From Atriophallophorus winterbourni (taxonomy: Eukaryota; Platyhelminthes; Trematoda; Plagiorchiida; Microphallidae), in the NCBI GenBank assembly GCA_013407085.1, contig JACCGJ010010420.1:124001-188000 (forward strand): DNA of 64,000 bases. Reading direction: 5' to 3'. The notes under the pieces were generated by a model. The model worked only from the letters and a program-made list of their open reading frames with translations, had not been told where the DNA came from and did no database searches. A program made the translations under genes and the position numbers. Of this stretch, positions 11,785 to 60,110 are shown one piece after another (position 1 is the first letter of the stretch; each line of letters starts with the position of its first letter).

Positions 11785-13149
11785 TTTAAAACACAAACTT
11801 TTGATATCAAAAACGTTTACAGAGAATAAATTATATGTAATAGGGCACATCAACTGTCGTTGAATATTTCAATATTAATCTCGATTTTCTCCGTGATTAC
11901 TTCACATATCCAAGTTAGAGGTAAATGTATATAGCGTTGCTCACAAACACGAACTCACGCAATACAACCGAATTTTGTATGTTTGCAGTCATCAGGTAAA
12001 ATTAGTTTAGCTGACGTTTAAGATCACCGTCACATTCAGAGCAAGTGAATGTTTGCTGATTCGGATTAACCTTGTCATTCAACTGAACAAATAAATTTCA
12101 TCATCATAATTAAAACAGGTTTCAAATAAAAATCCGTATTTGCATGCCTTTCCATCACAGACTCTAGCTTTCAAATCAGTCATATTTTATTCGTGATGTA
12201 TACGGAAAGCAAGAATATATTTTAAATAGTCTTAGCTCATTACGTCTCCTTTTTTGTTCAGCGCACTAAGCTAAATAACTATGTGAAAAAGCTAGTTTGC
12301 AGAAAGCCATACCAAGAATAAAATGAAAGCACTGTCAGTTATATAAATGCAAGGAGATAAATGTATTGGAACTCTGCCTATAATTATTTCAAGAAAGTCA
12401 CATACATTCTTCTGAAAACTGATCAACTAGGTTTGCGGGAGTTTTAATTACAGCGTAAACAATTGGACGGCATTAAATTAAATTGATAAATCCGATCCAT
12501 TCATAAATACAAAACATATTCAGGTGTAATGTGCTCTATCAATAGATTAATGTATTGGCTACACTCCATTCGAACAGGTACCATTTCCATAAATATATAT
12601 GTGCAATATTTGCGGTTTTCTTTGTTGATTTGGCTGTGTTAAGAGGTAAATGGTCAACGTGGAAAGCGATAACTAGCAACTGTTTATATTTTAGTGTTCA
12701 CTGCTTAGCAGAATGATGGAGAACGAATCCGAAAATAACACTATCACAGCAATGTGATGTGATGATTGAGTCACTACGTTTGCATGATCTCTCTGTGGGC
12801 GATATTCTGTAACACGAATCAGAATGTGCCTTTCAACTACATCAATATTACTGCATTCTTAAAGCCGATCATTAGGTATGCAAGAGTAACATTACTCATC
12901 ATACGGATGTCGGGTTCAAGGTTGTTACGGTCGTCTGTGGTGATGGACGGTGTACCAAAATTGGCAATCCAGTTTTAGACGAAGGCGTGTGCTACAGTCT
13001 CAATACATATGTCTTTGATCGGAAAAGCAATTAGTTATCGAGTACAAAATAAAAGTATTCCACTACACGTTAAAGGAAGTCAAACATTGATCAATTTCAG
13101 TGTGAAGCCAGGACTTTTGAAACACGAACACCCAATTTAGTGAATAATC
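11785..13149. other. AT-rich intergenic DNA, no gene recognised
   Basis: I see no supported gene, RNA or repeat boundary here. The open frames are short and lack protein-like composition. Confidence 0.5.
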
Positions 13150-13797
13150 TGAGCTATTCAATGACGAATAAACGTCAGCATGGTTAGTAGGTTCAGGATC
13201 GGTATGCGCACGAAACAGTGGAGAAATGTTAAACAATTATCGTTAGTATGTCACTGGTAAATAAGGATGGTACGAGTAACCTCTTCAATTACATGTGTCC
13301 AAACACATGGTAAATGGGGTTGAACCAATAACCATGAGACAAAATCTACGTTTGCCTGCATTTCCTGCACACACCCCACGACGGGACCGTGCTAGGTGCA
13401 TTCATCAGGTAGGGATAGTATAGAACGAATCCGGATGCGATTGAAACAGTGGAGGAATGGTAAACATTCAGCGCTAGTTTGCCACTGTTAAATAAGGAAG
13501 CAAGTCCAAACTTTTCTGTTACATCTGTCCAAACACATGTTTAATGTGGGTAATCCGTAACCATGAAACAAAATATAGATTTGCATGCATCTTAATCACA
13601 CACACTACACGACTGGTTTCGTTCTGATGGCACTATTCACATAGGGACAGTAGGATCAGGAACCGCGTGAGATTAAAACATTGAAGAAAGTGTAAACAAG
13701 TAGACCTTGTATGCCACTTTTTGATAATTCTGGCACGACCAACGTGTTCAATTTCATGGGTCTTAACATACGTTTAATGGGGTTAAACCCCTAACAA
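13150..13797 (-). repeat. 233-bp hammerhead satellite array, left part
   Basis: Three diverged units have GGATCCGCATGCGC-like landmarks near 13196, 13428 and 13657, a spacing of about 230 bases. Each unit reads in minus orientation for the ribozyme motif. The array is interrupted at about 13798 by an RTE fragment and resumes in the same phase and orientation at about 16187. Confidence 0.85.
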
Positions 13798-16077
13798 TGA
13801 TGATAATTTTGATGATTATTCCCTTGAGTTCCTGGTGGAACATAGGGCCTTGGCAACTTGTCTCTAGTTTGGTCTGTCCATAGCAGCCAGTTTGATGTCG
13901 TTCCAGTTAAGTGCGCACTTGCGGATTTCCTCTTCAGACGAGCGCTTCCAAGATAGCCTTGTGCGTCCGACCTGTCTCTTCCCGATTGTGTTACATACCA
14001 GAGCGTGATGCGTGATGTCATCATAAGGTTTCTGCAAGGTGTTCCCTATCCATCTCCACTTTTTTCTACTGATCTGATGGGCGATCGGGTCATCAGCAGC
14101 AATCTGCTACAGGTCTTGATTCTTTATCTTTTCTGGCCATTTACCCCAATAATTCGAAAAAGTCATTATTGTGAAATGATTGCAAGCGGCCAGAAAACTT
14201 TGCTGTCACTCGCCAGCTTTCCGATCCATAAAGTAGCACGGATTTCACGTTGCTTCTAAATATACGGAGTTTCGTGCGTTTTGATAGAACCTTCGACTTC
14301 CAAATGGGTTTCGAAGCTATGAACGCGTATCTTGCTTTGCCGATTCTGGCGACTATGTCTTCGTCTGTGCCACCACCTATTGAAACAATGCTGCCGAGAT
14401 AGAGGAATTGCGTGACGTCTTTGACTGCTTTACCATTGATGGTGATTGATGGGTGCTCATCAGTTTGCACACCAAGGACTTCTGTTTTTTCGGTATTCAC
14501 GCGTATTTTTGCATATGAAGCAAAGTGTGCTAGTCTATCGCTCTTTCTCTGAAGACGTTGGGGGTCACGTGATATGAAGCAGACATCATCAGCGTATTCC
14601 AGATCCTCCAAATGCTCGTATTCCCTCTAATCAATAAAGTTCCTCTCACCTTTTACTGTTTGTTTCATTATCCAGTATATTACCAACAGGCATTGATGGC
14701 GGACGCCAGTCTTAACTGCAAATGGATCGGTAAGTCTTCCGTTGTGAATTACCTGACAGAACGCACCTTCACACAGCTGCTTTATGAGGTCCATTTACAG
14801 CGGTGGGACCCCATAATGTGGCAAAAGCTTTCATATGAATTCGCGGTCCACATGTGCGATTGTCATTCAATGCTTGGTTCAATTATGATGCGGAGGGTCG
14901 CTCTTTAGTCGATAACAGACTTTTGTTTTCTGAAGCCCTATTGCTCTGGCCGTAACACTTGATCAATAGCGTCGCGCAAGCGCAGAAGGATGATGCGTGT
15001 AAGCACTTTACTAGGGACTGGGAGCAGCATGATAGCTCGCCAGTTTTTGCATGGCCTCAGATCCTCTTTCCTCGGAAGTTTGACCAAAAGACCTCTCTTC
15101 CAATCATTTGGGAATCGTCTTTCTGACCAGCTTTTCTGCAGCAGAACAACTGACATATCAGCTAACGTGACCAAATCAGCCTTCAGAGCTTCTGGTGGGA
15201 TCCCATCTGGGCCTGGTGCTTTGCCATTCTTCAGCGATTCTAAGGCAAAAAGGATCTCATTTCGACCGGGGGGATCGGTGTTTACGTCTAGCAAATTTGC
15301 TGTCGGTGGGATGTCAGTGACTGTAGTAGGTGCTGGTCGATCTAGGAGTTCCTTAAAGTGCTCCATCCATTGCCTTCTTTGCACCGATTCCTGACTGCTA
15401 AGGTTACATTCACCTTCCTTTATTATTTTGCCGTAAGGTATTTTTCTTCCTGATAAGGTTCTAGTAATGTTGTTGACGGTGTTCAGGTCTCTTTTCTCTG
15501 CTGCATTTTCAGCCTCCGTTGCCAGCATTTCATAGAACCGCCCCTTGTCAATTCTGGCACTTTGTTTCACGTTTTTATTCAGGGAGCCCTATTGTTCGAT
15601 CAGTTGGATTTTCTGTGTGGTGTCCTTACATCGGAGGATCTGTTGTTTCGGCTGCCTTCTCGAGTTGATCAGTGTCCGAGTCTCACTCCAGATCCACTCT
15701 TTGTCTTTCTTTACCCGTCTGCCAATTACGTGCTTACAAGTGTCTTGACAACAGTCTTTCAGAGCGGTCCAGTGTTCATTTATTGGGAGTTCAGGGATTA
15801 AGTTGTTGAGCGATTCGAATCTGTGTTTCAGTGAGATTGGGAAAATCTCTCTTGTACGCTCTTCCCTTAGTTTCTGCGTTTGATACTTTACACTAGGCCG
15901 ACTGCCGATTTCGTAGAAAGCTCTCAACTTGATTTCAATTTTGGCCATTAGAAGGTAGTGATCTGAAGCAACATCCGCACCTCGCATTACGTGTGTATCC
16001 AGGAGACTATGTCTCCATTTCCGTGAAATCGATAGGTGATCGATGGGATTGGCAGTAACACCATCAGGTGATATCAA
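13791..16077 (-). pseudogene. Endonuclease-reverse transcriptase of the truncated RTE, broken into four frames
   Basis: From 16077 the frame gives the end of the apurinic-type endonuclease (IDHLSISRKW and GADVASDHYLLMAKI, the SDH catalytic block) and the linker. The frame 15570-14938 has LSGRKIP and LKNGKAPGPDGIPPEALKAD, the RT fingers. The frame 14611-14141 has EYADDVCFISR, where the YADD box sits, then YLGSIVSIGGGT and LLYGSESW. The frame 14024-13791 holds the C-terminal end near the SARLKRKSAS segment. The RT active-site region between about 14700 and 14938 is partly lost. It cannot make a working protein. Confidence 0.8.
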
Positions 16078-16186
16078 GGTGGCCTTGTGGATGTTTCGGT
16101 GTTAAAAGATGCTGCCTCCGATGACCAGATCGTTTAGCGCGCAAAAATCTGCGAAAATTTCACCGTTCTCATTCATTTCACCTAGG
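13798..16186 (-). mobile_element. 5'-truncated RTE-clade LINE inserted in the satellite
   Basis: On the minus strand this runs from the endonuclease domain (5' truncated at about 16186) to a 3' end with ATGATGATAA-like repeats near 13790-13815. The satellite unit is cut after its AACCCATAACCATGA part and resumes at GCATGCATTTC, so the insertion sits inside one unit. Protein similarity to the intact RTE at 52.9-56.1 kb runs end to end, but with an internal deletion near 14700-14938. A sister copy of the same subfamily is at 40738-41787. Confidence 0.85.
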
Positions 16187-18471
16187 GCATGCATTTCAAT
16201 CACACACACACACCAGCGACTTGTTTTGTGGTGTTTCCACTCATTATGTATGGATATTAAGTTTAGGATCCGCATGTGCTTGAAACTGTGGAGGATTTTC
16301 AAACAATTAGCGCTAGTATGTCACTGTTAAATAAGGCGGGTACGACCAACATGTTCAGTTACATGTGTCCAAACACATGTTTTTTGGGGGTTAAACCCAT
16401 AACCATGAACCAAAATATTCATTTGCATGCTTTTCTGTCACACACACCCCACGACCGGTTTCGAGCTGTTTGCACTCATCAGGTAGGGATAGTAAGATCA
16501 GCATCCGCATGCGCTTGAAAAAGTGGAGGAATGGTAAACAAGTAGCGTTTGTATGCCACTGTTGGATAAGGCTCGTACGACTAACCTGTTCAAAGCATGT
16601 GTCGAAACACATGTTAAATGGGGTTAAACACATAACCATGAAACAAAATATACATTTTCATGCAAGTCTATCACACACCCACACCGCGACTTGTTTTGTG
16701 GTGTTTCCACTCATCATGTATGGATATTAGGTTCAGGATCCGCATGCGCTTGGAACTGTGGAGGATTTTCAAACAATTAGCGCTAGTATGTCACTGTTAA
16801 ATAAGGCTGCTACGACTAACATGTTCCAATACATGTGTCCGAAAAGATATTTAATTGGGCTAAAGCCATAAACATGAACCAGAATATTCATTTTCTTGCA
16901 TTTTTTATCATACACCCTACAACCGGTTCGTTTTGGATTGCACTAATCAGGTAGGGACAGTAGGATCAGGATCCGCATGCGCTTGAAACATTAAAGGAAT
17001 GATAAGCAACTGGCGCTTGAATGCCCGAGTTAGATGAGGATTGTTCGACAAACCTGTTCAATAACATGTGTCCAAACACATCTACGATGGGGTTTAACGA
17101 ATAATCATGTACCAAAATATTAATTTCCATGCATTTTTTATCATACACCCCACAACCGGTTCGGTGCAGTGTGCACTTATCAGGAAAGGGACAGTAGGAT
17201 CATGATCTAAATGCGCTTGAAATAGTGTATTATGTTTAAACTAGTAGATATTGCATGTTTCTGCTTGATAAGGCTGGCACTACCAACCTGTTCAATGTCA
17301 TGTGTACAAACACAAGTTTAATGGGGATAAACCCATAGTGATGAAAAAATGTTGATTTGCATGCATCTGCATCACGCACGTGCAACGATCGGTTTCCTCC
17401 TGTATGCACTTATCAGATAAATAGAGTAGGTAACGGATCCGCGTGCGTTTGAAACAGTAGAGCAAGCGTAAATAAGTTGGGGATGTATGCCGCTATTGGA
17501 TAAGGTTGGCACGACTAACCTGTTGCATTTCATGTGTCGAAACACACGTTTAATGGGTTCAAACCCTTAACCATGAAGATAAACATTCATGGGCATGCAT
17601 TTTTATCATACACATGACAACCGGTTCCGTAAATTGTGCACTTAACAGGTAGTGACAGTAGGATCAGGATCCGTATGCGCTTGAAACAGTGGATTAAGTG
17701 TAAACAAATATCCCTCGTATGCCACAGTTGGATAAGGTGAGCCCGACCATCCTGTTCAATTTCATGGGTCTCAACACATTTTTAATGAGGATAAACCCAT
17801 AACCATGAACCAAAATATTTATTTGCATGCATTTCTATCACACACGCTACCCGATCGGTTTCGTGCTGTTTGTAATCATAAGTTAGGTAGAGTTAAATAA
17901 GGATCCGCCTGCGTTTGAAGCAGTAAAGTAAGTGTAAATAAGTTGTGGTTATATACCATTGTTGGATAAGGCTGGCACGACCAAACAGTTCAATAACATC
18001 GTTCCAAACCGATGTTTAATGGGGATAAACCCAGAACCATGAAAACAACATATTTAATTGCATGCATTTTCTTCACAAAAACCTTACGACGTGTCCGTGC
18101 TGTGTGCAATCATCAAGTAACGACAGGATCCGCATGCGCTTGAAACAGTGGAGGAATGATAAACAAGCAGCGATTGTATGCCACTATTGAATAAGTCTGG
18201 TACAGTCAACCTGTTCTATTAAATGTGTCCAAACACATGTTTAATGGGATTGAAGCAATAAACATGAATCAAAATATAGATTTGCATGCATTTCGATCAC
18301 ACATATCCCACGAAAGGTTTTAGGATGTTTGGACTCATTATGTAGGGACAGTACGATCAGGATCCGCATGCGCTTGAAACAGTGGCAGATTGGTAAACAT
18401 TTAGCGCTTGAATGCCACTGTTGGAAAAGGCTGGTACGACTAGCCTGTTCAATTCCATGTGTCTAAACACA
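16187..18471 (-). repeat. 233-bp hammerhead satellite array, right part (about ten units)
   Basis: Landmarks of the GGATCCGCATGCGCTTGAAAC type recur at about 16267, 16501, 16737, 16969, 17204, 17434, 17669, 17900, 18125 and 18359, a spacing of 225-236 bases. Each unit also carries ACATGTGTCC/ACACATGT, a perfect 8-bp hairpin in the best copies (16361-16380). Read on the minus strand, each unit carries a hammerhead-like segment in varying states of decay. Identity between units looks like 70-85%. The array ends at about 18471, where the word ATGTT is shared with a truncated CR1 copy. Confidence 0.9.
16447..16490 (-). ncRNA. Type I hammerhead ribozyme, best preserved copy in the satellite
   Basis: Read on the minus strand, from 16482 down, the order is CTGATGA (16482-16476), GTGC, a five-base loop AAACA, GCTC, GAAA (16462-16459), the palindromic ACCGGT as a minimal stem III, and GTC (16455-16453). 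Self-cleavage is predicted between 16453 and 16452. Stem I pairs the bases before CTGATGA (CCCTAC) with GTGGGG after the cleavage site: six pairs, one a G-U wobble. Stem II has one U-U mismatch here; the satellite consensus GCAC repairs it. All invariant core bases of the hammerhead family are present. Activity is inferred, not shown. Confidence 0.75.
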
Positions 18472-18479
18472 TGTTCGTT

Positions 18480-19536
18480 ACCATTGATTCTGGGGCATGT
18501 TGCTCGATCCGACTATTTTGATTTACTGCAATGGCAACATCATCAGCGTATTTGAGGGTAAATGCAGATGGGTCAGATTAAAGATAAGAAATATAAAGGG
18601 AAAATAGAAATGGTGACAATATTGCACTTTGAATGACACCACGGGGGATAGCTATTTCACACGAGGTTTGGTCGTTCGCGACTGTGTATTGGATTCGACC
18701 CTCAAAATAGGATGCCAGCCAATGAAGAATATTTGTCGTGACCCATAATCAGATAATTTTTGAAGTAAGGAGTTTCTTAGAAGACTGTTAAAGTCATTTG
18801 TGTAATCCAAAAAAAGTTTGTACTGCTCTAGATTTGCTATCTAGAGAACGTGAGATGAAATCTGTGAGTACAGCGACAGCATCAACAGTTGAACGATTTT
18901 TCCGGTACGCGAACTGATGAGCATCATGCACCTGACAGCTGGACACCAGTCACCGTAAAACAATTTTCTCAAGTACCTTGAGCAACTGCGACGTGCACGC
19001 GAAAGGACGGTATTTACCGGGATCTTTCTTGGGAATCTGGCTAATACAGACAGATTTCCAGCAATCAGGCATGATTGCTCTTTCCATGCAACGAATAAAA
19101 ATGGATGTAATGGGGGATGATAGCACTCCAGCACATTCTTTTAGTACAGTGGGCGAGAGTTTATCAGGTCCTGCAGCCTTGAAACATGAGACAGCCGAGA
19201 GTGCACAAAAGACCTCGGGTATGTTGGTGAAATGTGAATCGGAAAAAGAGGATATGGGCAAATTAAAGTTCTCTTCACAGTCATATCAGTAGTTTGGTGC
19301 ACGAACGATTCGTTGAAGGAATTAATATCAAAAATTTGTTCAAACGCACGCCATAGGTGACGACTGTCTTTCGTTCCAAGAAGTGTGTTCGTGTACAGCA
19401 TTTCAAGACGTCTAATTTCGAGCTTGATTGACTGGGAAAGCAACACAACAGTTATACGATCATGTATTTTAAAGGCTTTCTCTTTCAATCTCCTTAGGCG
19501 TTTTAGGTGCACAGAAGAAAAACGGTGAGGACTCAC
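18480..19536 (-). pseudogene. Reverse transcriptase part of the 3'-truncated CR1 copy
   Basis: The frame from 19536 begins with SPHRFSSVHLKRLRRLKEKAFK, the same linker as at the left edge of the window. It shifts near 19261 to a frame with SRFKAAGPDKLSP-like and KSVCISQIPKKDPGKYRP. It shifts again toward the LDYTN and VQYT segments near 18800-18660. At 18530-18490 the YADDVAIA region is still readable. Multiple frameshifts and loss of the 3' end make it non-functional. Confidence 0.75.
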
Positions 19537-19602
19537 AATTATAGTTTCTTTAGGACAACAGATTTCAAAGCGAAAGTTGAGATAGGATGTTACAACTTTG
19601 AA

Positions 19603-20458
19603 TCACATTGAATCACTTTGAACATCACATTCTACGGAGACATCATCTTCATGAAAAATGTTGAAATCAGTGGTAGAAAGCACGTCCCTGAGGGTTGAAA
19701 TATTGTTAAGCTGACAAGATCTGGAAGCCACTTTTTTGACATTACTGCGAGTGAGATATCTGTGTCCAGTGCTTCCATAAATTTTGGGGAGAAGTTCGAT
19801 AATGCAATGGTCAGAATTACCAATTGGAGCTAACTTGCGGGCGAGGAACAGATGAGGTGCATTTTTTGAGCGACAATAGGTTAAACATAGATACATTGCA
19901 GTCATTGAGGTCTACAGCTAAAAGAATCAAAGAATTTAGAAGAGGAACAAGTTTCATTTGGAGTTTATCAATGAATGCATTAAAAACTTTACATTGACAA
20001 TTGGGGATAACATAAGTATTTATCAAAATAAGGGATTGAAAATTAGAAAGATGTCGGGTTTTGCATTCGACTGCCAGGCAGGATATTTCAAGCTTGTCAA
20101 AAGTAAAAATCTGTTTGCAGCATGAGCACCAGTCGTTTCGAATATATGTGATAACACCGCCACCACGATTCCTCAAGGGACAGGTTCGGTCAAGACGAAA
20201 ACAGTTGAATCCTTCAATGGAGAGCAACTCATTTTCTATTGTCGAGTGAAGCCATGTTTCTTGGAACATGGCAATGCCTGTATGCTTTGAAATTTTTGAA
20301 GTGAGCAGTTGAGAAATTTCACCATACTTGGACCACAGCGAACGAACGTTTGATGATAAAATACAAGGTATAGGCATTCTAGATAAGTCATGACGTCGAC
20401 GAAGAGCGACTTGCCAGCCTGCACGATGTTTCCTTTTCTTTTTCAATGCTTGCTTCAA
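19603..20458 (-). pseudogene. Apurinic-type endonuclease part of the CR1 copy
   Basis: The frame starting at 20458 contains the basic leader HRAGWQVALRRRHDLSRM, then SSNVRSLWSKYGEISQL (N block), GIAMFQETWLHS (catalytic Glu), DRTCPLRNRGGGVITYI and VECKTRHLSNFQSLILINTYV. A second frame to 19603 has the SDHCIIELL block, the terminal SDH motif of these endonucleases. The NDCN-like DLNDCN at about 19870 stands for the usual GDFN. The enzyme would nick target DNA; a frameshift near 19850 breaks it. Confidence 0.75.
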
Positions 20459-31159: not shown

Positions 31160-31370
31160 ATGTCAGCTATAAAACACGGCATGGCGTAATTCTTTTAAAA
31201 TGTGCGCGTTATAAATTGATTCTTGTTAATGCGAAAACAAGAAATATCAAGAAAACGATAGCGATTGAACGTCTCAGAAATGACAAAAAATGTGGAAAAA
31301 ATGATTGTGCACAGCCGATTTGAAGGCCACGATTCCCCGAATTAATTCAACAAACACATGGTTTGATGCT
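31160..31370 (-). mobile_element. Fragment of a CR1-like LINE 5' UTR
   Basis: Reverse complement of the 5' UTR at 20698-20890: the blocks GGAATC, GCCTTCAAATCGGCTGTG and GCGCGTTATAAAT occur in the same order. No coding part follows; the fragment ends near the start of endonuclease. Its upstream end joins the satellite array at about 31370. Confidence 0.7.
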
Positions 31371-33048
31371 TGATAAGTGCACACTGATCGGAACCATCGT
31401 AAAGAGAATGATAGAAATGCATGAAAATGAATATTTTGGTTCATGGTTAAGGGTTTAACCACATTAAAAATGTGTTCACACCAATGAAGTTGAACAAGTT
31501 GGTCCTACCAGCCTTATCCAAAAGTGTCATACAAGGGCTATTTGTTTAAACTTCGTCCACTGTTTCAAGCACATGGGGATCCTGATCCTCCTCTCCCTAA
31601 CTGATGAGTGCAGGAGGACCACCACCGATAATGGGATGTGTGTTATTGAAATGCATGCAAATCTATATTATTGTTCATGGTTATGGGTTTAACGGAATTG
31701 AACATATTTAGAGACACATCTAACATAACTGGTTGATCATACCAGCATTCTTTACAGTGGCATACAAGCGCTACATATTTACCAATCCTCCATTGTTTCA
31801 AGCGCATACGGATCCTAAGGCTAATAGCCATACATGCCGAGTGCAAACAGCACAAAATCGGTCGTGGGATGTGTGTAATGGAAATGCAAGCAGATCGATA
31901 TTTTTTCATAGTTATGGGTTTAACCCCATTAAACATGTGTTCAGACACATGTGATTGAAGAGGTTAGTCGTACAAGCCTTTTCCAACAGTGGCATTGAAG
32001 CAAAAATTGTTCAACATTCCGCCACTTTTCCAAGCGCATGCGGATTGTGATCCTACTCTCCCTACTTAATGAGTCCAAACATCCCAAATACTGTCGTTGG
32101 ATATGTGTGATAGAAATGCATGCAAATCTATGGTTTAGTTCATGGTTTTGGCTTTAACCCAATTAAACATGTTGTCGGACACATGTAATAGAGCAGTTTG
32201 GTCGTACCAGCATTGTCCAACAGTGACATTCGAGCGCTACTTGTTAACCAATCCTCCACTGTTTCAAGCGCATGCGGATCCTGACCCCACAGCCCAAAAC
32301 CGGTCGTGGGATGTGTGTGATGAAAATGCATGCAAATATATATTTTGGTTCATTATTATGCGATCAACCCAATAGAACATGTGTTCGGAGACATGTAAAC
32401 AAATCGCTGCTTGTTTACAATTTCTGCACTGTTTTTAAGCGCATGCGGATCCTGCTTTTCATGCTCATACCTGATGAATGCACACAGCACGGACACGTCG
32501 TGGGTTTTGTGTGCAGGAAATGCATGCAAATCTATATATTGGTTTAGAGTTATTGGTTTAACCCCATTAAACATGTGTTTGGACACATGTAATTTAACAG
32601 GTTGCTAGTACCAACCTTTTCCAACAGCGGCATCCAAGCGCTAAATGTTTAGCATTCCTTCACTGTTTCAAGCGCATGCCCATCCTGATCCTACTGCTTC
32701 TTCCTAATGAGTGCAGGAAGTTCATAACCGGTCGTGAGATGTTTGTAATGGAAATGAAAGCAAATCAATATTCTTTCGTGGTTATGGGTTTAGCCCCATT
32801 AAACATGTGTTTAGACATGTAATTGAACAGGTTAGTCGTACCAGCCTTTTCCAACGATGGCATTCGAGCGCTAAATGTTTACCAATCTGCCACTTATTTA
32901 AGCGCATGCGGATCCTGATCTTACTGTCCCTACATAATGCGTGCAAACAGCCTAAAAGTTCGTGCCTCGTGCGGGGTGGAAATGCATGAAAATCTATATT
33001 TTGGTTCCTGGTTATGGCTTTAACCCCATTAAACATGTTTTTGGACAT
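31371..33048 (+). repeat. 233-bp hammerhead satellite array in plus orientation (about seven units)
   Basis: The same unit as at 13-18 kb appears here as its reverse complement. Landmarks of the TTTCAAGCGCATGCGGATCC type recur at about 31560, 31795, 32025, 32260, 32435, 32670 and 32900. One interval is only about 175 bases, so that unit has a deletion. Ribozyme-like segments appear near 31590, 31836, 32290, 32470 and 32720, but each has lost at least one core block. The array ends in CAT triplets that belong to the neighbouring RTE tail at 33049. Confidence 0.85.
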
Positions 33049-33890
33049 CATCATCATCATCATAAGAGACTGCATTACATCGGTAGCACGTACCAATGCT
33101 TAACTGGCATACAACCACGAGAAAGTCAAATCCTTAAAGATGGGTAAACGTGGGACTTAAATAGCTACGGATTATATAGAAGAGTGAGCACAAGCGATCT
33201 GGGAAGAGGTGCCTACACCTCGAATGAAACATGCATTCAAACAAGTTTCGTGAACAAATAGAGTGACATCAGCATGGTAGCTTCCTTGCGGCTTTCACTG
33301 TCATGCATCATAACATGCTTTTCTCGTCACTCCGCTTGACAACATACAAGGTTAAGCAAACACTCCAAGAAGATGCTTAGTGCACGACCGCCATTTAACA
33401 CGGTTTCGTGACATATCCTGAAGCGTAACTAACCACTGCGATATCTGATCGCGGGGACACCATCCTGGAAGACGCGCTGCGCGTACTTTAGAAAGGTTAC
33501 TAGTAAAGGTTTTTAACTGCCTATGCCATGTGACGGTTTGGCCACCCTGAGATTCACGCCAATCAGGATGTGGCGTCGCAAAAAGAATCCGTTTCGGAAG
33601 TCGGTGGTCCGGCATCCGTAAAACGTGACCCAACCAGCGTAACCTATGCAGGTTGATCTGCTTCTCTATATCAACATTGCTACCAAACAACTTATTTTGG
33701 AGAGCATCGGTGGGCATACGATTGTAACAGCTAACTTTTTGAATGCTGCGGAGACACCGGTTGTCAAAAACTTGGAGACGCTGAATGTGTGCTTAACGTA
33801 AGGTCCAAGTTTCGCACCCATATAGTAACACAGCCCAACTGTCGCTTTATAGAATCTACCCTCGAGTAACAGAGATAGTCCTTTCTAATA
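33049..33890 (-). mobile_element. 5'-truncated RTE-like LINE, second subfamily, with (CAT)n tail
   Basis: On the minus strand this is the last 0.84 kb of an RTE-like LINE ending in triplet repeats at 33047-33064. The C-terminal coding frame (33717-33352) has LRWLGHVLRMPDHRLPKRILF, the zinc-less C-terminal region typical of RTE and related LINEs, and ends at VKWRSCTKHLLGVFA. An inverted copy at 38111-38871 matches over about 750 bases. Both 3' tails abut the 233-bp satellite. Confidence 0.75.
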
Positions 33891-38110: not shown

Positions 38111-38138
38111 TTGATGACCTGGACCTTACGTAAAGCAC
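35784..38138 (-). pseudogene. RT, RNase H and integrase of the fourth gypsy element
   Basis: From 38110 the RT frame gives [26 protein letters not shown] and FVYVYIDDVLIAS. A shift near 37780 leads to the frame 37806-36565. It has FLGMVNYYCRFIPQ, RNase H (LTTDASQIAVGAVL, SRELLAIYFAVKHF, YTDQKPLIY, NVVADALSRG) and integrase (HGLSHPGIRFTVKLI, CVACQTSK, HVDIVGPLPISN). A second shift near 36640 gives WISIFGVPSTVTTDRGSQF, NGMVERFHRQLKAAI, ELVFGSTISLPGEM and SIDRLKLAYIEQS. A proline-rich tail with a repeated TPPTQPMTD follows. Motif residues are intact, so decay is modest. Confidence 0.8.
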
Positions 38139-38871
38139 ACATTCAGCGTCTCCAAGTATATGGCAATCGATGGTTCCGCAGCATTCTAGGATTTAGCTGT
38201 TACAATCATATGCCCACCGATGCTCTCCGAAATAAGTTGTTGGGTAGTAATGTCGATATAGAGAAGCAGATCAACCTGCTTAGGTTACGCTGGTTGGGTC
38301 ACGTTTTACGGATGCCCGACCACCGACTTCCGAAACGGATTCTTTTTGCAACGCCACATCCTGATTGGCGTTAATCTCGGGGAGGCCAAACCGTCACATT
38401 ACATAGGCAGTCAAAACCCTTACTAGTAACCTTTCTAAAGTAGGCGCAGCGCGTCTTCCAGGATAGTGTCCCCGCGATCAGATATCGCAGTGGTTAGTTA
38501 CGCTTCAGGATATGTCACGAAACCGTGTTCAATGGCGGTCTTGCACTAAGCATATTCTTGGAGTGTTTGCTTAACCTTGTATGTTGTCAAGCGGAGTGAC
38601 GAGAAAAGCATGTTATGATGCATGACAGTCAAGGCCGCCAGGAAGCTGTCGTGCTGATGTCGTTCTACTCGTTCACGAAACTTGTTTGAATGCATGTTCC
38701 ATTCGAGTTGTGGGCACCTCTCCCCAGTTTGTTTGTGCTTAATCTTCTATAGAAGCAGCAGTAATTTCAGTTCCACGCTTCCCGATCTTTTAGGATTTTA
38801 CTTTTTCATGGTTGTATGGCAGTTAAGCATTCGGTACGTGCTACAGGTTTATTGCTGACTTTGATGATGAT
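38111..38871 (+). mobile_element. RTE-like LINE 3' fragment, inverted copy of 33049-33890
   Basis: Plus-strand sequence starting with TGGACCTTACGTAAAGC matches the complement of 33810-33060. It includes the coding frame 38084-38374 with LRLRWLGHVLRMPDHRLPKRILF and a GATGATGATG tail at 38862-38873. It joins the truncated gypsy RT at about 38110 without a visible target duplication. The coding frame stops early at 38372-38374. Confidence 0.75.
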
Positions 38872-39122
38872 GATTGGTTCATGGTTACGGGTATTGCACC
38901 ATTAAACTTCTTTTTGGACACATGTAGTTGAACAGGTTCGTCGTACAAGCCTAATCCAACAGTGCTATTTAAGCGCTAATTGTTTTCCATTCATCCACTG
39001 TTCGAAGCGCATGCGGATACTGATTTTCCTGTCACAACCTGATGAATGCACGCTGCACGGACCCGTCGTGGGGTTTGTGTGAAGGAAATGCATGCAAATC
39101 TATATATTGGTTCAGTGTTATT
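38872..39122 (+). repeat. Single 233-bp hammerhead satellite unit
   Basis: One unit in plus orientation has TTCATGGTTACGGG, TTGGACACATGT, a GCGCATGCGG landmark near 39008 and a ribozyme-like segment near 39038-39070. There CTGATGA and GTC are kept, but GAAA has become GGAC. It ends at the boundary of the inverted-repeat arm. Confidence 0.8.
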
Positions 39123-40727
39123 GATAATCACAATATGCACGAACTATCGATCTTGATTGATGATTAATCGATAGTTCGTTTAGTGTCAATAATCGATTCA
39201 CGAATAACGATCAATGTGGTGCACGCGAGGCATGGCACGTTCGATGCTCCGCAGCAGTTTGTATACATGATGTGACGAACAGACTTTGTTTACGGTACAC
39301 ACGTTTGCTTCACATATGACATAGAACCACGAACAACTGCACACATTTCACAAACTAACTGTAGCCGAGTGCACAAAGTTCGCCAAATCGATTTCTACAA
39401 ACGTTTCACCTTTCAAAACTGCAGGAATATTTAAGATGAAGCCAAATTTTTGCATGATGAAGCAAGTCTGCCATCCGATATCACGATGGATACCGGCAGA
39501 TGAGTTAATTTGTTTGTAAAATCTCGCGTTCTAATTGATAAACCTGTTAAGTACCTCGGTGAAATAGAGTCTAAGAAGCACTGCAACATTAGTAAAATTA
39601 TTTTCATCTTTTCATCAAATTACTTGATTTTCTAATATATGATTTTTGAAGAAAAGCTTTCAACTAGGTTTTGACCTAATGTTAAAATTAAATTAGCTAT
39701 TATTATAGGATTAAATTAGAATACAAATGGCTATATAAATAAACGGGAACGTTCAGCTTCTGACTAGTCCAAGTGTGTAAGTCATGAGAAGTTACATAAC
39801 AGATTTCCAAACAGAGAATAAGAACAACGGCAAGCAGACATTTGCCATACAGTTCAAACCTCGTGTGAATACATCAAAATCTTCGGTTGAGCAACGAAAG
39901 TAGATGGAAAGTTAAAATCTTTCGTCTAAGAAAAACGCATGGATACAACTACTGTCTTATGTAACCTCCACTGGTTGTACACAGGTCTGCAGGTATATTG
40001 CTTGGTCCATTTATCCATAAGATACAACAGCTTTCAGCGATTAATATTAGCGAAAAGATGCTTATCTTAATCTGCTCAGCGCCTCTTAATCAATTGTTAT
40101 TGGTATTTCATAAAAAGGAAATAAATTATTCGCTAGCGAAATCTTAGACTTTCGCATATTCGCGGTGAGATTTTTTTCTGATTAGCATTCTTGAAATACA
40201 TTCAATACATTTTGAAGCAAAAATCTATCATCGACGTTGCCGATGTGCCTCATTATTTCAATATCATCATCTTGTTGTCCGTTTGTTTTAATACATCGTT
40301 CAGTAATAGTATTGGCTCAAGCATTGATCCTTTTCTGGCAACGCTAGTGCATTCGATTTGCTCCGAAAATTGGAAATATACATGAACTCAGATTTATCAG
40401 TTGCTATGAGACTAACCTACCCATTCATACTGTTTCCGAACAATACAATGTTTTTCTAGCCTGACCAATAATAAATAATCATTGATGATTCAAATGGCTG
40501 CAAACATATAAAGGTAAGATGCATAAAACATCCGAGTGCATAATCAATACCTGTTCAATCTCAAACGTGTTAGCGTATTTTTTAAGTAAGATCGATTTTT
40601 GAGGAAGCCGTGTTTTGGCAACCGATAAATGTCTGTTTCTGTCGAGATGTTGCACCATTTCTGCACTTTGTATTCACTCAAAAACATTTTGATGCCGAAG
40701 ATTGCAGTGTCATCTGCGTGCAATTTT
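39123..40727 (-). repeat. Right arm of the 1.6 kb inverted repeat (partner 1877-3443)
   Basis: Reverse complement of the left arm. It contains about 145 bases of the old gypsy LTR (39123-39270, including the 11-bp hairpin near 39137-39175), then the flank and the RT relic. Because LTR and flank are joined at the same base in both arms, the duplication happened after the gypsy insertion. It ends at about 40727, next to the 3' end of an RTE fragment. Confidence 0.8.
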
Positions 40728-40737
40728 TAAATCAACA

Positions 40738-41787
40738 TAACTTACTTTCTTAATCCCTTGAGTTCCTGGAGGAACATAGGGCCTTAGCAACTTGTCTCCA
40801 GTTTGGTCTGTCCATAGCAGACAGTTTGATGTCGTTCCAGTTAAGTCCACACTTGCGGATTTCCTCTTCACACGAGCGCTTCCAAGATAGCCTTGGGCGT
40901 CCGACCCGTCTCTTCCCGATTGTGTTCCATACCAGAACATGACGCGTGATGTCATCATAAAATTTCCGCAATGGGTGCCCAACCCATCTCCACTTTTTTC
41001 TACTGATCTGCTGGGCGATCGGGTCCTCAGCAGCAATCTGCCACAGGTCTTGATTCCTTATCTTTTCTGGCCATTTTACCCCAATAATTCGACGAAAACA
41101 ATTATTGTGGAATGATTGCAAGCGGCCAGAAGACTTTGCTGTCACTCGCCAGGTTTCCGATCCATAGAGTAACACGGATTTGACGTTGCTTCTGAATATA
41201 CGGAGTTTCGTGCGTTTTGATAGAACCTTCGACTCCCAAATGGGTTTCAAAGCTATGAACGCGTATCTTGATTTGCTGATTCTGGCGACTATGTCTTCGC
41301 CTGTACCAACACTTATTGAAACAATGCTGCCGAGGTAGACGAATTGCGTGACGTGTTTGACTGCTTTACCATTAATGGTGATAGATGGGTGCTCATCAGT
41401 TAGCACACGGAGGACTTCTGTTTTTTTCGGTATTCAAGCGTAGTCCTGCATATGAAGAAAAGTGTGCTAGTCTATCGGCCTTGCTCTGAAGACGTTGGGG
41501 TCATGTCATATGAAGCAGACATCATCAGCGTATTCCAGATACTCCAAATGCTCGGATTAGTTCCAATTGATACCATTCCTCTCACCTTTTACAGTCTGTT
41601 TCATCATCCAGTCTACTACCAACAGAAAAATCATTGGGGACAGCAGGCATCCATGGCGGACGCCAGTCTCAACTGCAAATGGATCGGTAAGTCTTCCGTT
41701 GTGAATTACCTGACAGGAGGCACCTTCATACAGCTGCCTTATGAGGTCCATGTGGGACCCCATAGTGTGGCAAATGCTTCCATATAT
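40738..41787 (-). mobile_element. 5'-truncated RTE-clade LINE, same subfamily as 13798-16186
   Basis: The minus-strand frame 41406-40750 gives the RT thumb and C-terminal region: YLGSIVSISVGTGEDIVARI, VLLYGSETWRVTAKSSGR and KKWRWVGHPLRKFYDDITRHVLVW. It ends SSRNSRD, almost as in the intact RTE. Upstream frames near 41700-41560 have QLYEGASCQVIHNGRLTDPF and GVRHGCLLSPMIFLLVVDWMM. The YADD box region near 41500 is frameshifted (EYADDVCFI is readable). 5' truncation is at about 41787. Confidence 0.8.
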
Positions 41788-42856: not shown

Positions 42857-43225
42857 TCATTCATTCAGTCCTCTCCGTGCCAAGTGGCACATGAGGCGAA
42901 AACAAATTCACGCTAGTGGTTCCGGTCTGTTGCTGCTTCCGTTGCCGTCTGCACCATGAATCCTTGTGCATGTAGTTCGCGTTCCAACGTTCTGCGCCAA
43001 GTTTCCTTGAGCCGTCCCCTTTTTCGTTTACCTTGCGGATGCCAGTGCATGGCCACCTTCGTATGCGAACTGGGATCCATCCTGCAGACATGACCGAACC
43101 ACGGATCTGTTGTCATCGTTTCCGTAGCAATGTAGGTTTTACGGGATAGGGTTGCTAGCCCTAAGCTTAAACCTCCTCCTTCCTCAGACGGGCTTGGGAC
43201 AGTCCTTGGCGGAGTTTCCCTCTTT
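42857..43225 (-). mobile_element. Short internally deleted RTE derivative (SIDE-like)
   Basis: On the minus strand the first 90 bases (43225-43131) match the 5' UTR of the intact RTE. The shared blocks are the GGGCTTGGGAC and GGGTTGCTAGCC words, seen at 56011-56080 as well. The following 260 bases encode the RTE C-terminal region: WFGHVCRMDPSSHTKVAMHWHPQGKRKRGRLKETW. An ATTCATTC tail is near 42857-42868. Everything between is missing. Such elements are moved in trans by full RTE proteins. Confidence 0.65.
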
Positions 43226-47112: not shown

Positions 47113-47214
47113 GTTACACGTTTTCAATAATTGTCGTGTTATACATTTCGATTTATATTAAGCAATGATCCAAATTCCATGAATTAAGGAAACAATATAA
47201 AATTAATTATTCGC

Positions 47215-47349
47215 ATGCACACCAAGCTATCAGGCTGTTTAGTCTTCAGGTGGACGCAGTAAGCTCAAGATTTTTATGTCTTGAAACAGTGGAAAAACGG
47301 TAAACTTTGAGGCAAGTTTCGAAAAGGCTCACACGACCACCATGTTTAT
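47215..47349 (-). repeat. Degenerate 233-bp satellite remnant
   Basis: The order GCATGCACACC, ATCAGG, then TTGAAACAGTGG and GGTAAAC follows the satellite in minus orientation, though the ribozyme core is no longer recognisable. About half a unit. Confidence 0.5.
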
Positions 47350-51984: not shown

Positions 51985-52450
51985 AGCAATCCGTTAGTGA
52001 TGAAGTGTCTTGGGAATTTGGGTACAAAGCGACTTCCACAGCACCACTTGGCGTTTGTCTGTGTCGGTTTTACCCTTTGCACAACCAAGTGCTACCTGTA
52101 AGGCAGCAGAAAGTTGCTGGAAAGAGGTGGTGTTCACCAACTAACTGCCTAAGGGACTCTGGTGCAGATTTTCCTTAGGGTTTCCACTCTAGAATTTTTC
52201 GTGTTCCAGTATCTTGCAAGAAAACGGTTTAAAATCTGGGTTTTACTTCCCCTAAATGGACTACCCTCTAAAGCTTACGATTTGTATCCACCCGACCCTA
52301 CCTAACTAACTAACTAATTTTCGGCCGCCAGTCGCTCACTCTAGCTCTTTCCCATTTTAACAGAATTAGATCCGCTGGGCTCCTAGAGCCACTCGTGCAG
52401 GCCAGGAGCTGGATTAGATTGTTAGTAGCTATTTGAGACCCACGCCGCGT
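51985..52450 (-). repeat. Dispersed repeat, second copy
   Basis: Same ordered words as 48880-49150, with an insertion of about 200 bases between the CAGCAGAAA and GAGCCACTCGTGCAG blocks. It contains a short TAAC run at 52300-52316. It probably represents the 5' UTR of the RTE relic. Confidence 0.5.
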
Positions 52451-52903
52451 GGGAGCATTTTATAGACATTGGGAGCTTATCCTCACTTCCGCACTTAGCT
52501 ATGACAACCTTTGAAACTTATCGCGTTCCAGAAAACTACGCTATGCGACTCAATAGATGCTTTAGCCTTATCCAAGTGAGGGATTCTATATGCTCACACT
52601 GTGTGGTCAACGTCTCTCTCCGGTGAACCAGGAAGCCTGGTCGCGTTTTGTAAAGTGCTGATTGTCAAGTCCTCCCCGTTCGTCGTAGCGTATAATTTCT
52701 GCAACTAGCTCTGTACAATGTCGAAGTAGACTTAATTCATTTTCTTCTCATCGGCGACATTTATCACTAGAATGGTCCCTATTGCGTTAGTGCGTATGCT
52801 GAAAGATGTATAGATGCCTTTTGGTTTTGACGTTCTGAAACGCTTTTTACCGTATATCGTCTTGTTCCTACGATCATATTTACAATCTATAGCTCAGAGT
52901 GCC
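52451..52903. other. No gene recognised
   Basis: AT-rich DNA without a supported feature, ending at the left target duplication of the intact RTE. Confidence 0.4.
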
Positions 52904-52916
52904 AGATATAATGTAT
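52904..52916. repeat. Left target-site duplication of the intact RTE
   Basis: The 13 bases AGATATAATGTAT here are identical to 56085-56097 on the other side of the element. Confidence 0.9.
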
Positions 52917-55900
52917 GACTTACTTGACTTATTCCTGTGAACTCCTGTTGGAGCATAGGGCTGCAACAACGCCACGCCAGCGAACTCTGTCCTGGGCTGC
53001 TATCCTCAGCTGAGTCCATGTCATTCCGGCATCCTTCGCTTCACTCACGACTGATCTTCTCCACGATTGCTTGGGTCGTCCCACTTTCCTTTTACCTTGT
53101 GGATTCCAGTCTAGTGCTTGCCTAGTGACGTTATCAGCTGGTTTGCGGAGTGTGTGACCTATCCACCCCCATTTTCTTTTCTTGATGTCCTGATCAACGG
53201 GGTTCTGGTTGGTTCTACGCCATAGGTCTGTGTTTGAAATCTTCTCAGGCCACCTGATGTTAAGAATGTGGCGCAAGCACTTGTTGACAAATGTTTGTAT
53301 CTTGTTGGTGATGTTGTGGGTAACCCGCCATGTTTCGGACCCGTAGAGGAGGACTGCTTTTACGTTGGTGTTAAAGATGCGGACTTTGCTGCGCTGGGAC
53401 AAGGCCTTAGATTTCCAGATGGGGCGCAGGGTGTTGAACGCTACCCTTGCTTTGCTGATTCGGCTCTTGACGTCGTCTTCTGTGCCACCATCAATGTTGA
53501 CCACGCTTCCAAGGTAAACAAAGCGGTCAGTCTCCACCACGTCTTTCCCCTGTAGATGCAGTGGCTGCTGTAGTTGGTTGTTCAATCGCATCACCTCGGT
53601 TTTCTTTATGTTGATTTTCAGGCCCGTCTTCTCTGCCTCTTCTGCTAGGCGCGTTAGCTTAGACTGTGCATGCTGTTGCTTGTGAGACAGGAGGCCGATG
53701 TCATCCGCAAAGTCAAGGTCTTCGAGATGTTTGGTGGGGGTCCACTGGATGCCGGTGTTGCTGCCCTCTGTGGTTCTTCTCATAATCCAGTCTATGACGA
53801 TCAAGAAAATTATCGGCGAGAGCATGCAACCTTGCCTCACTCCAGTCTTCACTGGGAAGGGGTCTGTCAGCTTTCCGTTGTGGATGATCTGGCATGATGA
53901 GTCCTCATAGAGCTGTTGGATGATGTTTATCAGCTTTTGCGGGATTCCGTAGTGTTGCATTAGCTTCCATATTGTCTCCCTGTCGACGCTGTCAAACGCT
54001 TTTTCGAAGTCGACGAAGATCGCGTACAAAGGAGACTGCCATTCGATGGATTGCTCGATGATAATACGCAGAGTGGCGATATGATCTATGCATGACCTAT
54101 CTTGTCTAAACCCCGCCTGTTCTGTTCTAAGTTTCTTGTCTAACGCCTCTTTCAATCTCTCCAAGATGATTCTGGTCAGTACTTTGCTGGGGATGGACAG
54201 CAACATGATTCCTCGCCAGTTGCCGCATTGGGAAAGGTCGCCTTTCTTGGGGAGCTTTACCAAATGCCCGAGCTTCCAGTCAGCCGGAACTCTCTCCTGT
54301 TCCCATAACTTCACCAGGAAGGGGTGTAACATCTCCGCTGCCGCTGTCGCGTCTGCCTTTAGAGCTTCTGAGGGGATGCCGTCAGGGCCTGGTGCCTTAC
54401 CATTCTTCAGGGACTTGATGGCATTGATGATTTCTGCAATTGTTGGGGGGTTGATGTTAATGCATAGGGATTCTTTTGCTGGTGATATATCAGGAGATGT
54501 TTGCGGAGGTGGTCTGTTTAGAATTTCTTCAAAATGTTCCACCCATCTTTTCCTTTGCCCCTCCTCGCTTGTCATGGTTCTTCCATTTTTGTCCTTGACT
54601 GGTTTGCTCGGTTTGGAACTCTTCCCTGACAAGGCTCGGGTGATTTCATATACCCTCTTCATGTTATTCTGCTTTGCCGCTAGCTCTGCCTCCTCTGTTA
54701 GGTTGTGTATAAATTTCCTTTTGTCCTGTCTAGCACCCTTCTTCACTTCCCGGTTTGTCTCCCAATATTGTGCTTTGAGGTCTGCCTTCTGTTGCAGGTC
54801 ACCGCATCTGCTAATTTCCATCTTCAGATCCCTCCTCTTCTTAATCTTCTCCCAGGTACCCTTCGTCAGCCATTCCTTCTGTTCCCTCTCTTTCTTCCCC
54901 AGAACTTTAGTGCACGCATCCTGCCAGGTCTTTCGTATTCCTGCCCAGTGATTTTCTATTGTTTCGTCGGCCAACTCCGACAGCGCCTCGAACCTATTCC
55001 TGACTTCACAGCTGAACTCTTCTGATTTCTTTTTGTCCATCAAGTACTGTGTGTTGAACTTGTGGTACGCTCTTCCTGACGGATCGTTGAAGGACTTCAG
55101 CTTGGTCCGCATTGTTGCAACCAGCAGGTGATGGTCGGAGGCTGCATCGGCGCCGCGCCTCACTCTGACGTCCAGCACACTACGCCTCCACTTTCTGTCT
55201 ATGGTGAAGTGATCTATCTGATTTTCCGTCTTCCCATCGGGTGAAGTCCAAGTAGTCTTGTGGATCCTTTTGTGAGGGTAAATGGTGCCACCTATTACTA
55301 AGTCATTGAACGAACAAAAGTCTGTGAACAGCTCTCCGTTCTCGTTGCAGGTACCCACGCCGTGTCTGCCCATGATGAGTTCCCTGCCTGTGTTGTCATC
55401 ACCGACCTTAGCGTTCAAGTCGCCCATGACGATCTTCATGTCTCTGCGCGGAGTCCGGTCTAAAAGGGCCTGTAAAGAGTTGTAGAAATCTTCCTTCTCC
55501 TCTTCTTGGGCTGTGTTTGTTGGCGCATAACACTGGATGATGGTGATCCTCCTTCCCTTGGAGTTGAACCTGGCTGCCATAAGTCTGGGTGAGACAGGTT
55601 CCCATGCCATTAGCGCTCTTGTAGCCTCTGGCGCTAACATTATTGCCACTCCTTGAGTGTGGCCATGATTCATATCTTCATGTCCGGAATAGATGATGGT
55701 TTCCCCTGAAGATAGTCTGTTCTGACCGCTCCCATTCCATCGAGTCTCACATAGGCCCAGAACTTTGATGTTGTAACTTTCCATCTCTTTGGCTACCTGT
55801 GCTAATTTCCCGCTCTCATATAGGGTTCTGATGTTCCAGGTCCCTATCCTGGTCTTTGCCTTGGTCGTGAGAAGACTTATCGGCGAGTTGGCTTCCCGAA

Positions 55901-56084: not shown

Positions 56085-56097
56085 AGATATAATGTAT
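56085..56097. repeat. Right target-site duplication of the intact RTE
   Basis: Identical to 52904-52916 over 13 bases. Confidence 0.9.
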
Positions 56098-57110
56098 AGT
56101 GTTTTAAAATCTAAAGACTATGTATCCGTTCTTCATCGATGAAGCATTGCAAGTAAACAATCAGTCTAAGCTGTATTCGTGACCAATCACGTTAATAAAA
56201 AATCACATGATTCTTTACCTACCGACAGCTACTCGATGCGTGGTGGTACGTCTAACCGTGTGCTGGCGGTGCTGGCCTTGATCTGCCGAGTGGTGTTTTG
56301 CTTGATTTATTGGTTCCGCCCTGAAAAGGTACCATTTCTCGCATTAAGTAATGTTTATTCAATTCTCTGATCGCTTCTATTTTACGTTTATCGACAAAGT
56401 GCCTTACTTGAACTACCGGAGTTTCCATCAAAATACACTCTGCCTGTTTGGTTGAATGTTAACTTGTATTTCGACCTGTCTTTTCTTTCTTTTGTGAATA
56501 AAACTGAATGACGCTGTTCCATCGTTTTTTCACTCATCTATTGTTTATTTATCAATAATATTTAGTTTAAGTTTACGGAAATCAAAATGACGTTGAAACG
56601 ATACAATCGGGAGTTTTAACGTTGTACAAGTTGACAGGCTTTTAAAAAAATATTAGAATTATCTGTGGATTTATTTTCCATTGTGTGGAATGAGCTAGGA
56701 TATCAGGCTGTTCGATGAAAGACAATGTTTCTTTCTGGCTGTTGCTTGCAAGATCTGTCGTTCGTTGTACGTGTCCTCATATGTGTTTTCAACGGATTTA
56801 TAGCGGCTGTACTCTAATTTACTTTTAAAGCTATCTGCCAAAATCTAAATTAGATTTCTTAAAAAAACCTAGTGCTTGAACTTTCACTATCCATTGCAAT
56901 CCATCTTTCACTGAAACGATAAAAGTTAAACAACGATCACATTCCTATTTTGAGATTCACACTTAAGCTATATAAGTGTCGGTACACCGAAATTCCCCAT
57001 CAAATCTGCACAGCCAGTATGATTATAACCGATTATTCAGAATTAAGAGTTTGTTCCAGGATACGTTCTGTTAACATTTTCATGAAACAAGAGGTACACC
57101 ATCATGCGAC
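56098..57110. other. No gene recognised
   Basis: About 1 kb of AT-rich DNA. A 63-codon plus frame at 56179-56370 is hydrophobic near its end but unsupported. Confidence 0.35.
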
Positions 57111-59583: not shown

Positions 59584-59597
59584 GTTAAGAACCACTG

Positions 59598-59775
59598 TAT
59601 TAAACCAATGATCATGTAGAAAAATGCTCATTCGCATGCATTTCAATCACACACACCTCACGACTGCATTGGTACTGTTTGCACCCATCAGGTAGGGACA
59701 GTAAGTTCAGGATCCGCACGTGCTTGAAACAGTTAACGAATGGTAAACGATTTGCGTTTGTTGGTCGCACTAACC
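59598..59775 (-). repeat. Satellite unit right of the hAT insertion
   Basis: It continues the interrupted unit: GCATGCATTTC, then a ribozyme-like segment near 59655-59690 (CTGATGG in place of CTGATGA and no GAAA), then GGATCCGCACGTGCTTGAAAC. It ends at about 59775, where the orientation reverses. Confidence 0.75.
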
Positions 59776-60110
59776 CTATCCAGCAGTGGCATACACGGAA
59801 CGTGACCTTATTGTCTCTACCTGATGAGGGCTTACAGCACGAAACCGGTTGTTGTGTGTTGGAACTGCATGCGAATGAGCATTTTTTTCATATTCATGGA
59901 TCTAGTCCTTATCTACATGTACATGCGCATATGTGATTGAACAGGTTTGCTGTACAATGGTGGCATACAAAAGCGACTTGTTTTCCATTCTTCAACTGTT
60001 TCCAACGCACGCGGATCAAATCCTTACAACCCCTACCTGATGAGTATAAACCGTAAGTAACCATTCGTGGGATGTGTGCGATGGAAATGTATTCAAATGA
60101 GCATTTCAGG
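59776..60110 (+). repeat. Inverted satellite units after an orientation switch
   Basis: From 59776 the unit reads in plus orientation (TATCCAGCAGTGGCATAC). At about 59830-59863 there is a nearly complete ribozyme core: CTGATGA, GAAA and ACCGGT are all present, but cleavage-site GTC is GTT and stem II has a mismatch. A second unit with CTGATGAG at about 60040 has lost GAAA. Confidence 0.75.

Follow-up and report, generated by a model that had tools for sequence, protein, structure and literature searches.

Probable decaying copies of a retrozyme-like repeat with a hammerhead ribozyme in its consensus in a flatworm genome

The 64-kb stretch of DNA analysed here (the window) contains 30 copies or fragments of a ~233-bp repeat, as recovered by an iterated profile search, whose consensus contains a complete type I hammerhead ribozyme. 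We propose that the arrays formed by this repeat are probably old, decaying copies of a retrozyme-like repeat of the non-LTR, non-autonomous kind; the host would be a flatworm, probably a digenean fluke. The family adds to a known kind; hammerhead-bearing repeats in animals have already been described. An earlier reading made from the letters of the window (the sequence-only reading) is, overall, partly supported.

The repeat family and its consensus hammerhead

The profile was seeded with unit 16452-16684 and extended the main array, array B, to the borders given in Table 1; Tandem Repeats Finder placed this array at 16265-18475, with a period of 234, 9.5 copies and 70% matches. The features by which retrozymes are recognised, namely tandem repeats of 150-450 bp, no LTR and a low GC content, are all found in the family, the GC fraction being 0.407 for positions 16001-20000, and no open reading frame of at least 150 aa was found in arrays B and C. 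Unit positions 131-143 of the family consensus (ATGCATGCAAAT) are among its better conserved parts and include the octamer ATGCAAAT, known as a POU-factor site, which 10 of 23 units carry unchanged.

Table 1. Copies of the 233-bp family and associated features in the window
Feature	Position	Strand	Remark
Array B	16187..18479	-	~9.8 tandem units; iterated profile search and Tandem Repeats Finder
Array A	13178..13813	-	read as array B continued past an inserted RTE copy
Degenerate fragment, unit positions 71-124	11953..12006	-	perhaps array A/B past another insertion
Array C	31367..33047	+	~7 units; intact core in 0 of 8 pieces
Array D	38874..39129	+	~1.1 units; core broken
Lone degenerate partial unit	47204..47307	-	profile search
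Partial unit, 59-kb locus	59598..59768	-	head to head with the two units at 59790..60107
Two partial units, 59-kb locus	59790..60107	+	first unit 59790-59957
Hammerhead with all core bases, unit 16563	16447..16488	-	CUGAUGA 16476-16482; G12-A15.1 16462-16459; ACCGGU 16459-16454
RTE-like LINE, 5'-truncated and broken, between arrays A and B	13814..16186	-	DNA identity

The commonest-base consensus of the 30 pieces reads CCCUAC-CUGAUGA-GUGC-AAACA-GCAC-GAAA-CCGG-UC-GUGGGG. It spells out a complete type I hammerhead. Stem I has 5-6 bp, the final G behind the sixth pair having a plurality of 0.45, and stem II has 4 bp; the CUGAUGA and GAAA segments, a cleavage-site C17 and a stem III that consists of the palindrome ACCGGU without a loop are also present. 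The type I core order, CUGANGA, GAAA, U16.1 and H17 around stems I-III with the open end at stem I, is found in the consensus. As the seed unit itself holds a hammerhead, the consensus was re-made by group. The core order was unchanged without unit 16563 (29 pieces), the 14 other pieces of arrays A and B retained the full hammerhead in their own group consensus, and the consensus of the three units at the 59-kb locus kept the core, with ACCAGU as the palindrome. The consensus of arrays C and D (10 pieces) has A at G12 and has lost one stem II pair. A descriptor written after the consensus had been seen, which combines the core order with a stem II of at least 4 bp and a stem I of at least 5 bp, was matched by 0 of 40,000 strands (both strands of 20,000 dinucleotide shuffles), of which 32 carried the core order alone. 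Repeat and core thus bear out the claim of the sequence-only reading that the window holds a 233-bp satellite with a type I hammerhead consensus. The search with covariance models that it had proposed as a check turned out negative: the Rfam models, which were run on the DNA of the window and not on the bare consensus, gave no gathering-level hammerhead match in the window. The best match was Hammerhead_HH9 (RF02275) at 16432-16497, with 25.1 bits against a gathering threshold of 52 (E = 0.003 over a 2.9-kb stretch, 0.066 over the window), although the alignment to the best single unit spans model positions 1-77 of 77. Within array C (31300-33100) and the 59-kb locus (59500-60200), no hammerhead match was obtained up to an E-value of 10.

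Loss of the core and low conservation of the ribozyme segment

The sequence-only reading had further proposed that every unit bears a segment with the hammerhead as its consensus and that the unit at 16447-16490 (minus strand) retains the whole core. The latter was confirmed, as unit 16563 shows 0 of 11 core mismatches, a stem I of CCCUAC/GUGGGG and a stem II of GUGC/GCUC with one U-U mismatch, and its predicted cleavage site lies between 16453 and 16452, as had been stated. The former is correct for the consensus; beyond what that reading stated, the core is broken in 24 of the 26 segment-bearing units, a count that includes unit 32219, whose 5' half is lost. The only other intact core (again 0 of 11 mismatches) is that of unit 59790 (59790-59957), which has all 11 core bases and a U at the cleavage site, with the 3' strand of stem I mostly gone. 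Because the core is intact in just 1 of 10 units of array B, the array is not now cuttable into 233-nt monomers by its own ribozymes; the processing of tandem transcripts into such monomers, as the sequence-only reading had it, finds no support in these copies, since one intact ribozyme in ten units would allow at most one cut within the array. By rough arithmetic, ~18% divergence through neutral decay alone would leave about 3 of 26 cores intact, and there is accordingly no sign of selection on the copies.

Unit 16563 is 6.5% diverged from the consensus, compared with 13-21% for the rest of array B, and its path from the tree's centre is the shortest (0.052; median end branch 0.15), so that the copy nearest the presumed master is the one that bears the ribozyme. 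Shorter tips (0.03-0.04) belong to the pair 16798/16328, on a stem of 0.12. This tree of 24 units is poorly resolved and near star-like, with support below 80 for 10 of its 21 inner branches; trees, parsimony-step counts and array-identity comparisons all used the 24 of 30 pieces with at least 130 aligned bases.

Compensatory change in the ribozyme stems did not exceed that in shuffles. Of the cells in the hammerhead stems, 69.6% are paired, the same share as the mean of the shuffles (69.6%), with a covariation score of 0.094 compared with 0.096 in shuffles, and three other predicted hairpins likewise showed no covariation beyond shuffles (79.3% paired versus 79.8%). Slid versions pair less, at 27-45% for the hammerhead stems and 33-49% for the three hairpins, as is expected for a structure that came from the consensus. 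Selection on RNA structure is unsupported by pair counts, by RNAalifold, which predicted no pair, and by the independence expectation; with no covariation beyond shuffles and no RNAalifold pairs, the copies look like DNA in decay. Folded as a circle, the consensus reaches -69.0 kcal/mol (z of -2.4 against 200 shuffles), with no covariation alongside. A helix that had been guessed between unit positions 51-58 and 131-138 was rejected for its poor register, since half of its consensus pairs (4 of 8) are non-standard.

Averaged over the 47 columns of the hammerhead segment, the consensus share is 0.769; for the 11 core columns it is 0.790, and elsewhere 0.838. In a count that omits unit 16328, a near-duplicate of 16798, singleton changes per cell amount to 0.030 in the segment versus 0.037 elsewhere, shared changes to 0.197 versus 0.126, and unit positions 98-118, the 3' half of the ribozyme, are the 21-column window with the most change, exceeding the 99th percentile of a simulation at a uniform rate. 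CpG decay was rejected as the cause of the low conservation of the ribozyme, as C/G transitions in the same count stand at 34 of 330 at CpG and 203 of 2045 elsewhere. The excess of parsimony steps in the segment is modest, with permutation P values of 0.042 on the all-column tree and 0.0016 on the outside-column tree, and it was reached by 7 and 6 of 230 rotations on the two trees; the 11 core columns on their own change at a near-average rate (0.116 and 0.162 steps per cell versus 0.136 and 0.134 for the rest).

Relations among the arrays and neighbouring transposons

Mean identity is 0.717 within arrays A and B, 0.731 within arrays C and D and 0.724 between these groups (the 16798/16328 comparison being left out). 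Identity within groups thus about equals that between them, which indicates that arrays A-D are not homogenised. Units 16798 and 16328, which are 93% alike, reflect a two-unit duplication in array B. The units of the 59-kb locus share 0.707 with each other, 0.667 with A/B and 0.653 with C/D and, being closer to each other, are read as a separate lineage of their own. The unit copies at this locus (59598-60107) lie head to head ~21 bp apart, and a transcript across them would form a long hairpin. No clear diagonal and no conserved unit order between arrays were seen in the identity table, and the copying of one whole array was rejected for want of such a diagonal. Variants with a broken core recur across arrays. 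Units 18188 (B), 32402 (C) and 38958 (D) share the form GGAC and group with unit 13489 (A), which has the related GGTC (support 89/86), and a second group, AAAA with an altered 5' core, joins 18422 (B) to 31985, 32219 and 32853 (C) (support 89/80); both groups lie below the starred level in a tree that the ribozyme columns helped to build. A possible third group with a broken core (17030, 17261, 17729 and 31367, CGAA/GGAA with G8 changed) carries no support value. In view of this recurrence, some spread as a plain DNA repeat seems to have continued; its source appears to be spread, or exchange, once the ribozyme had been lost, and parallel loss or an older, mixed array that was copied could also have produced it.

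The copies now sit among LINE sequence. Array B ends at unit position 139 and array A restarts at position 142 beyond the RTE-like LINE, so that A and B are read as a single array of ~12 units with the LINE inside. At the DNA level this LINE is 67-69% identical to parts of the RTE at 52401-56600 and 88% identical to 40750-41785. The upstream end of array B abuts a copy of a CR1-like element (our own label, as Pfam gives RVT_1 only) that matches a copy at the start of the window with 90.5% identity across 1142 bases, and sequences read as LINE 3' ends adjoin arrays C and D. The traceable array borders thus coincide with other transposons, and no target-site duplication was shown there. An inverted pair of ~758 bp, 33053-33810 and 38117-38874, is 90% identical and resembles two LINE 3' ends; each member ends right against a repeat array, in a TGATGA-type run (as the complement on the opposite strand). 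A match to the twister-P1 ribozyme was also observed at 56034-56089 on the minus strand (50 bits, E = 3.7e-8 over the window, gathering threshold 67.2), ~100 nt 5' of a 1000-aa RTE open reading frame at 52929-55931 (minus strand), and a weaker one (24.5 bits) at 43167-43221 on the minus strand, within a piece of this RTE 5' region. One paper (PMC7761336) mentions, as work in preparation, truncated twisters located at the 5' ends of RTEs. Pfam, applied to 10 of the 21 open reading frames listed, found RVT_1, RNase H, integrase or DUF6451 in seven and no domain in three. A flatworm host, probably a fluke, is suggested by the Gypsy protein, whose top named hit is Dicrocoelium dendriticum (61%) and whose other animal names among 120 listed matches are nearly all flatworms; matches of the RTE protein fall in molluscs, fish, lancelet and schistosomes, and those of the CR1-like protein include Trichobilharzia regenti as the sole named flatworm among 73.

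Origin of the repeat and its relation to known elements

These data allow a model for the origin of the family to be proposed, in which a master element is deduced from the copies within the 64-kb window. In a multi-unit transcript of this master, hammerheads from two different units would pair by way of the palindromic ACCGGU of stem III, upon which the paired hammerheads would presumably cut as a dimer. Circularisation would then follow, and a LINE or Penelope-type reverse transcriptase may copy the circle into a tandem cDNA that becomes integrated. After insertion, at least some copies may have spread as a plain DNA repeat. A stem III without its own loop makes efficient cutting by a single unit unlikely, and amphibian hammerheads with a palindromic helix III are described as requiring dimers (PMC7229834). 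Cleavage as a dimer through stem III had also been suggested by the sequence-only reading, and the predicted folds are divided on it. For two short consensus segments, the minimum-energy co-fold is a double hammerhead (-33.7 versus 2 x -14.8 kcal/mol), but in the two-unit consensus transcript the free minimum (-157.3) is a misfold in which ACC and GGU of each unit pair with one another. It is ~6 kcal/mol lower than the double hammerhead (-151.4), and a single cis hammerhead comes to -149.2. The predicted dimer of the real unit 16563 (-30.7) keeps stems I and III, with stem II shifted onto core G8 and A9, and the predicted fold of the native stretch 16333-16798 is also not a double hammerhead. 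As the energy model ignores non-canonical core contacts, these folds are suggestive only.

A retrozyme origin is favoured by the length of the unit, its tandem multi-copy arrays, its dispersal and the complete hammerhead in its consensus, as well as by the low divergence of the unit with the intact ribozyme and by an identity within arrays that is no higher than between A/B and C/D. By analogy, it is consistent with the same architecture in animal retrozymes and with a dimer-type helix III in axolotl and newts (PMC7229834). Against it, the best Rfam score falls under the gathering threshold, covariation is absent, conservation is lower in the ribozyme segment than in the remainder of the unit, the units of arrays A-D are not near-identical, unlike those of a single fresh rolling-circle insertion, the 59-kb locus forms its own lineage, and the traceable array borders coincide with other transposons and showed no target-site duplication. 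It is also conceivable, although we regard it as unlikely, that the family is a plain DNA satellite or the debris of a larger transposon, which captured its hammerhead from a retrozyme or Penelope-like element and was amplified by unequal exchange, conversion or extrachromosomal circular DNA, the ribozyme being irrelevant to the process. Such a satellite accords with the broken cores in 24 of 26 units, the variants common to A/B and C/D, pairing that stays at the level of shuffles, the heavy change at positions 98-118 and the two-unit duplication in array B, but not with an intact core in the least diverged copy, with the agreement of the A+B and 59-kb consensi on that core, or with the lack of homogenisation within arrays A-D. 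A retrozyme that turned into a plain satellite is a reading that we would entertain with doubt, as the possible third variant group lacks a support value and the 11 core columns by themselves change at roughly an average rate: the repeat would have spread on after losing its ribozyme more than once, and the loss of self-cleavage would have been tolerated or even favoured. A bolder form would have the RTE elements, one of them with the twister-P1 match at its 5' end, supply the reverse transcriptase. The units could, very improbably, be pseudo-LTR pieces of an autonomous Penelope-like element with minimal hammerheads; such hammerheads also have a reduced helix III, occur in tandem and may cut as dimers (PMC7761336), but here units repeat up to ~10 times without a 150-aa open reading frame, and no GIY-YIG domain was found in the 10 of 21 open reading frames scanned with Pfam. 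A merely fortuitous resemblance to a hammerhead, to which the Rfam scores below gathering and the lack of matches in array C and at the 59-kb locus would point, has hardly any likelihood, given that no shuffled strand carried the whole descriptor and that the best unit fits HH9 over its full length at 25 bits.

A retrozyme-like origin also fits with what is known of animals. According to Cervera and de la Pena (2020, PMC7229834), animal retrozymes have units of 170-400 nt with a type I hammerhead, and non-LTR retrozymes are stated for platyhelminths; type I hammerheads in tandem repeats are described from newts, schistosomes (PMC8490949, PMC6155905), corals, mussels and axolotl. The family resembles the animal non-LTR retrozymes of the first source in its tandem units of 150-450 bp, type I hammerhead, lack of LTRs and GC below 50%, and differs in that the present copies are old and that no target-site duplication was shown around them. 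According to that source, most invertebrate retrozymes are said to cut well as monomers, whereas helix III here is palindromic and of the dimer type, as in amphibians. In the same paper, the newt and axolotl hammerhead (HHR_Amex1) has a very short helix III of one pair and a palindromic tetraloop, for which the present family has A-CCGG-U; the amphibian satellites are likened to it by architecture and have a unit of ~330 bp compared with ~233 bp. By description, the Sm-alpha and W-elements of Schistosoma are similar, as satellite-like fluke repeats with type I hammerheads, some of which cut in vitro (PMC8490949). Hammerhead_HH9 remains the best model for the intact unit, aligned over the whole model yet well under its threshold. 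The literature searched, to which most subscription journals are external, yielded no paper on such repeats in flukes other than schistosomes. Prokaryote genome contigs gave 0 matches to a 32-base consensus pattern. Viral relatives were rejected: 51 viral contigs match a loose core pattern, and as these loci showed no similarity to the unit by blastn up to an E-value of 1, their matches are taken as chance.

From the window alone, the family is a modest addition to a well-described kind. Its mixed arrays would allow the question of how a self-cutting circular-RNA element decays to a satellite to be asked. Should the master persist in the genome, an invertebrate retrozyme would be at hand whose hammerhead is of the dimer type seen in amphibians, and one more fluke would join those besides schistosomes that carry such repeats.
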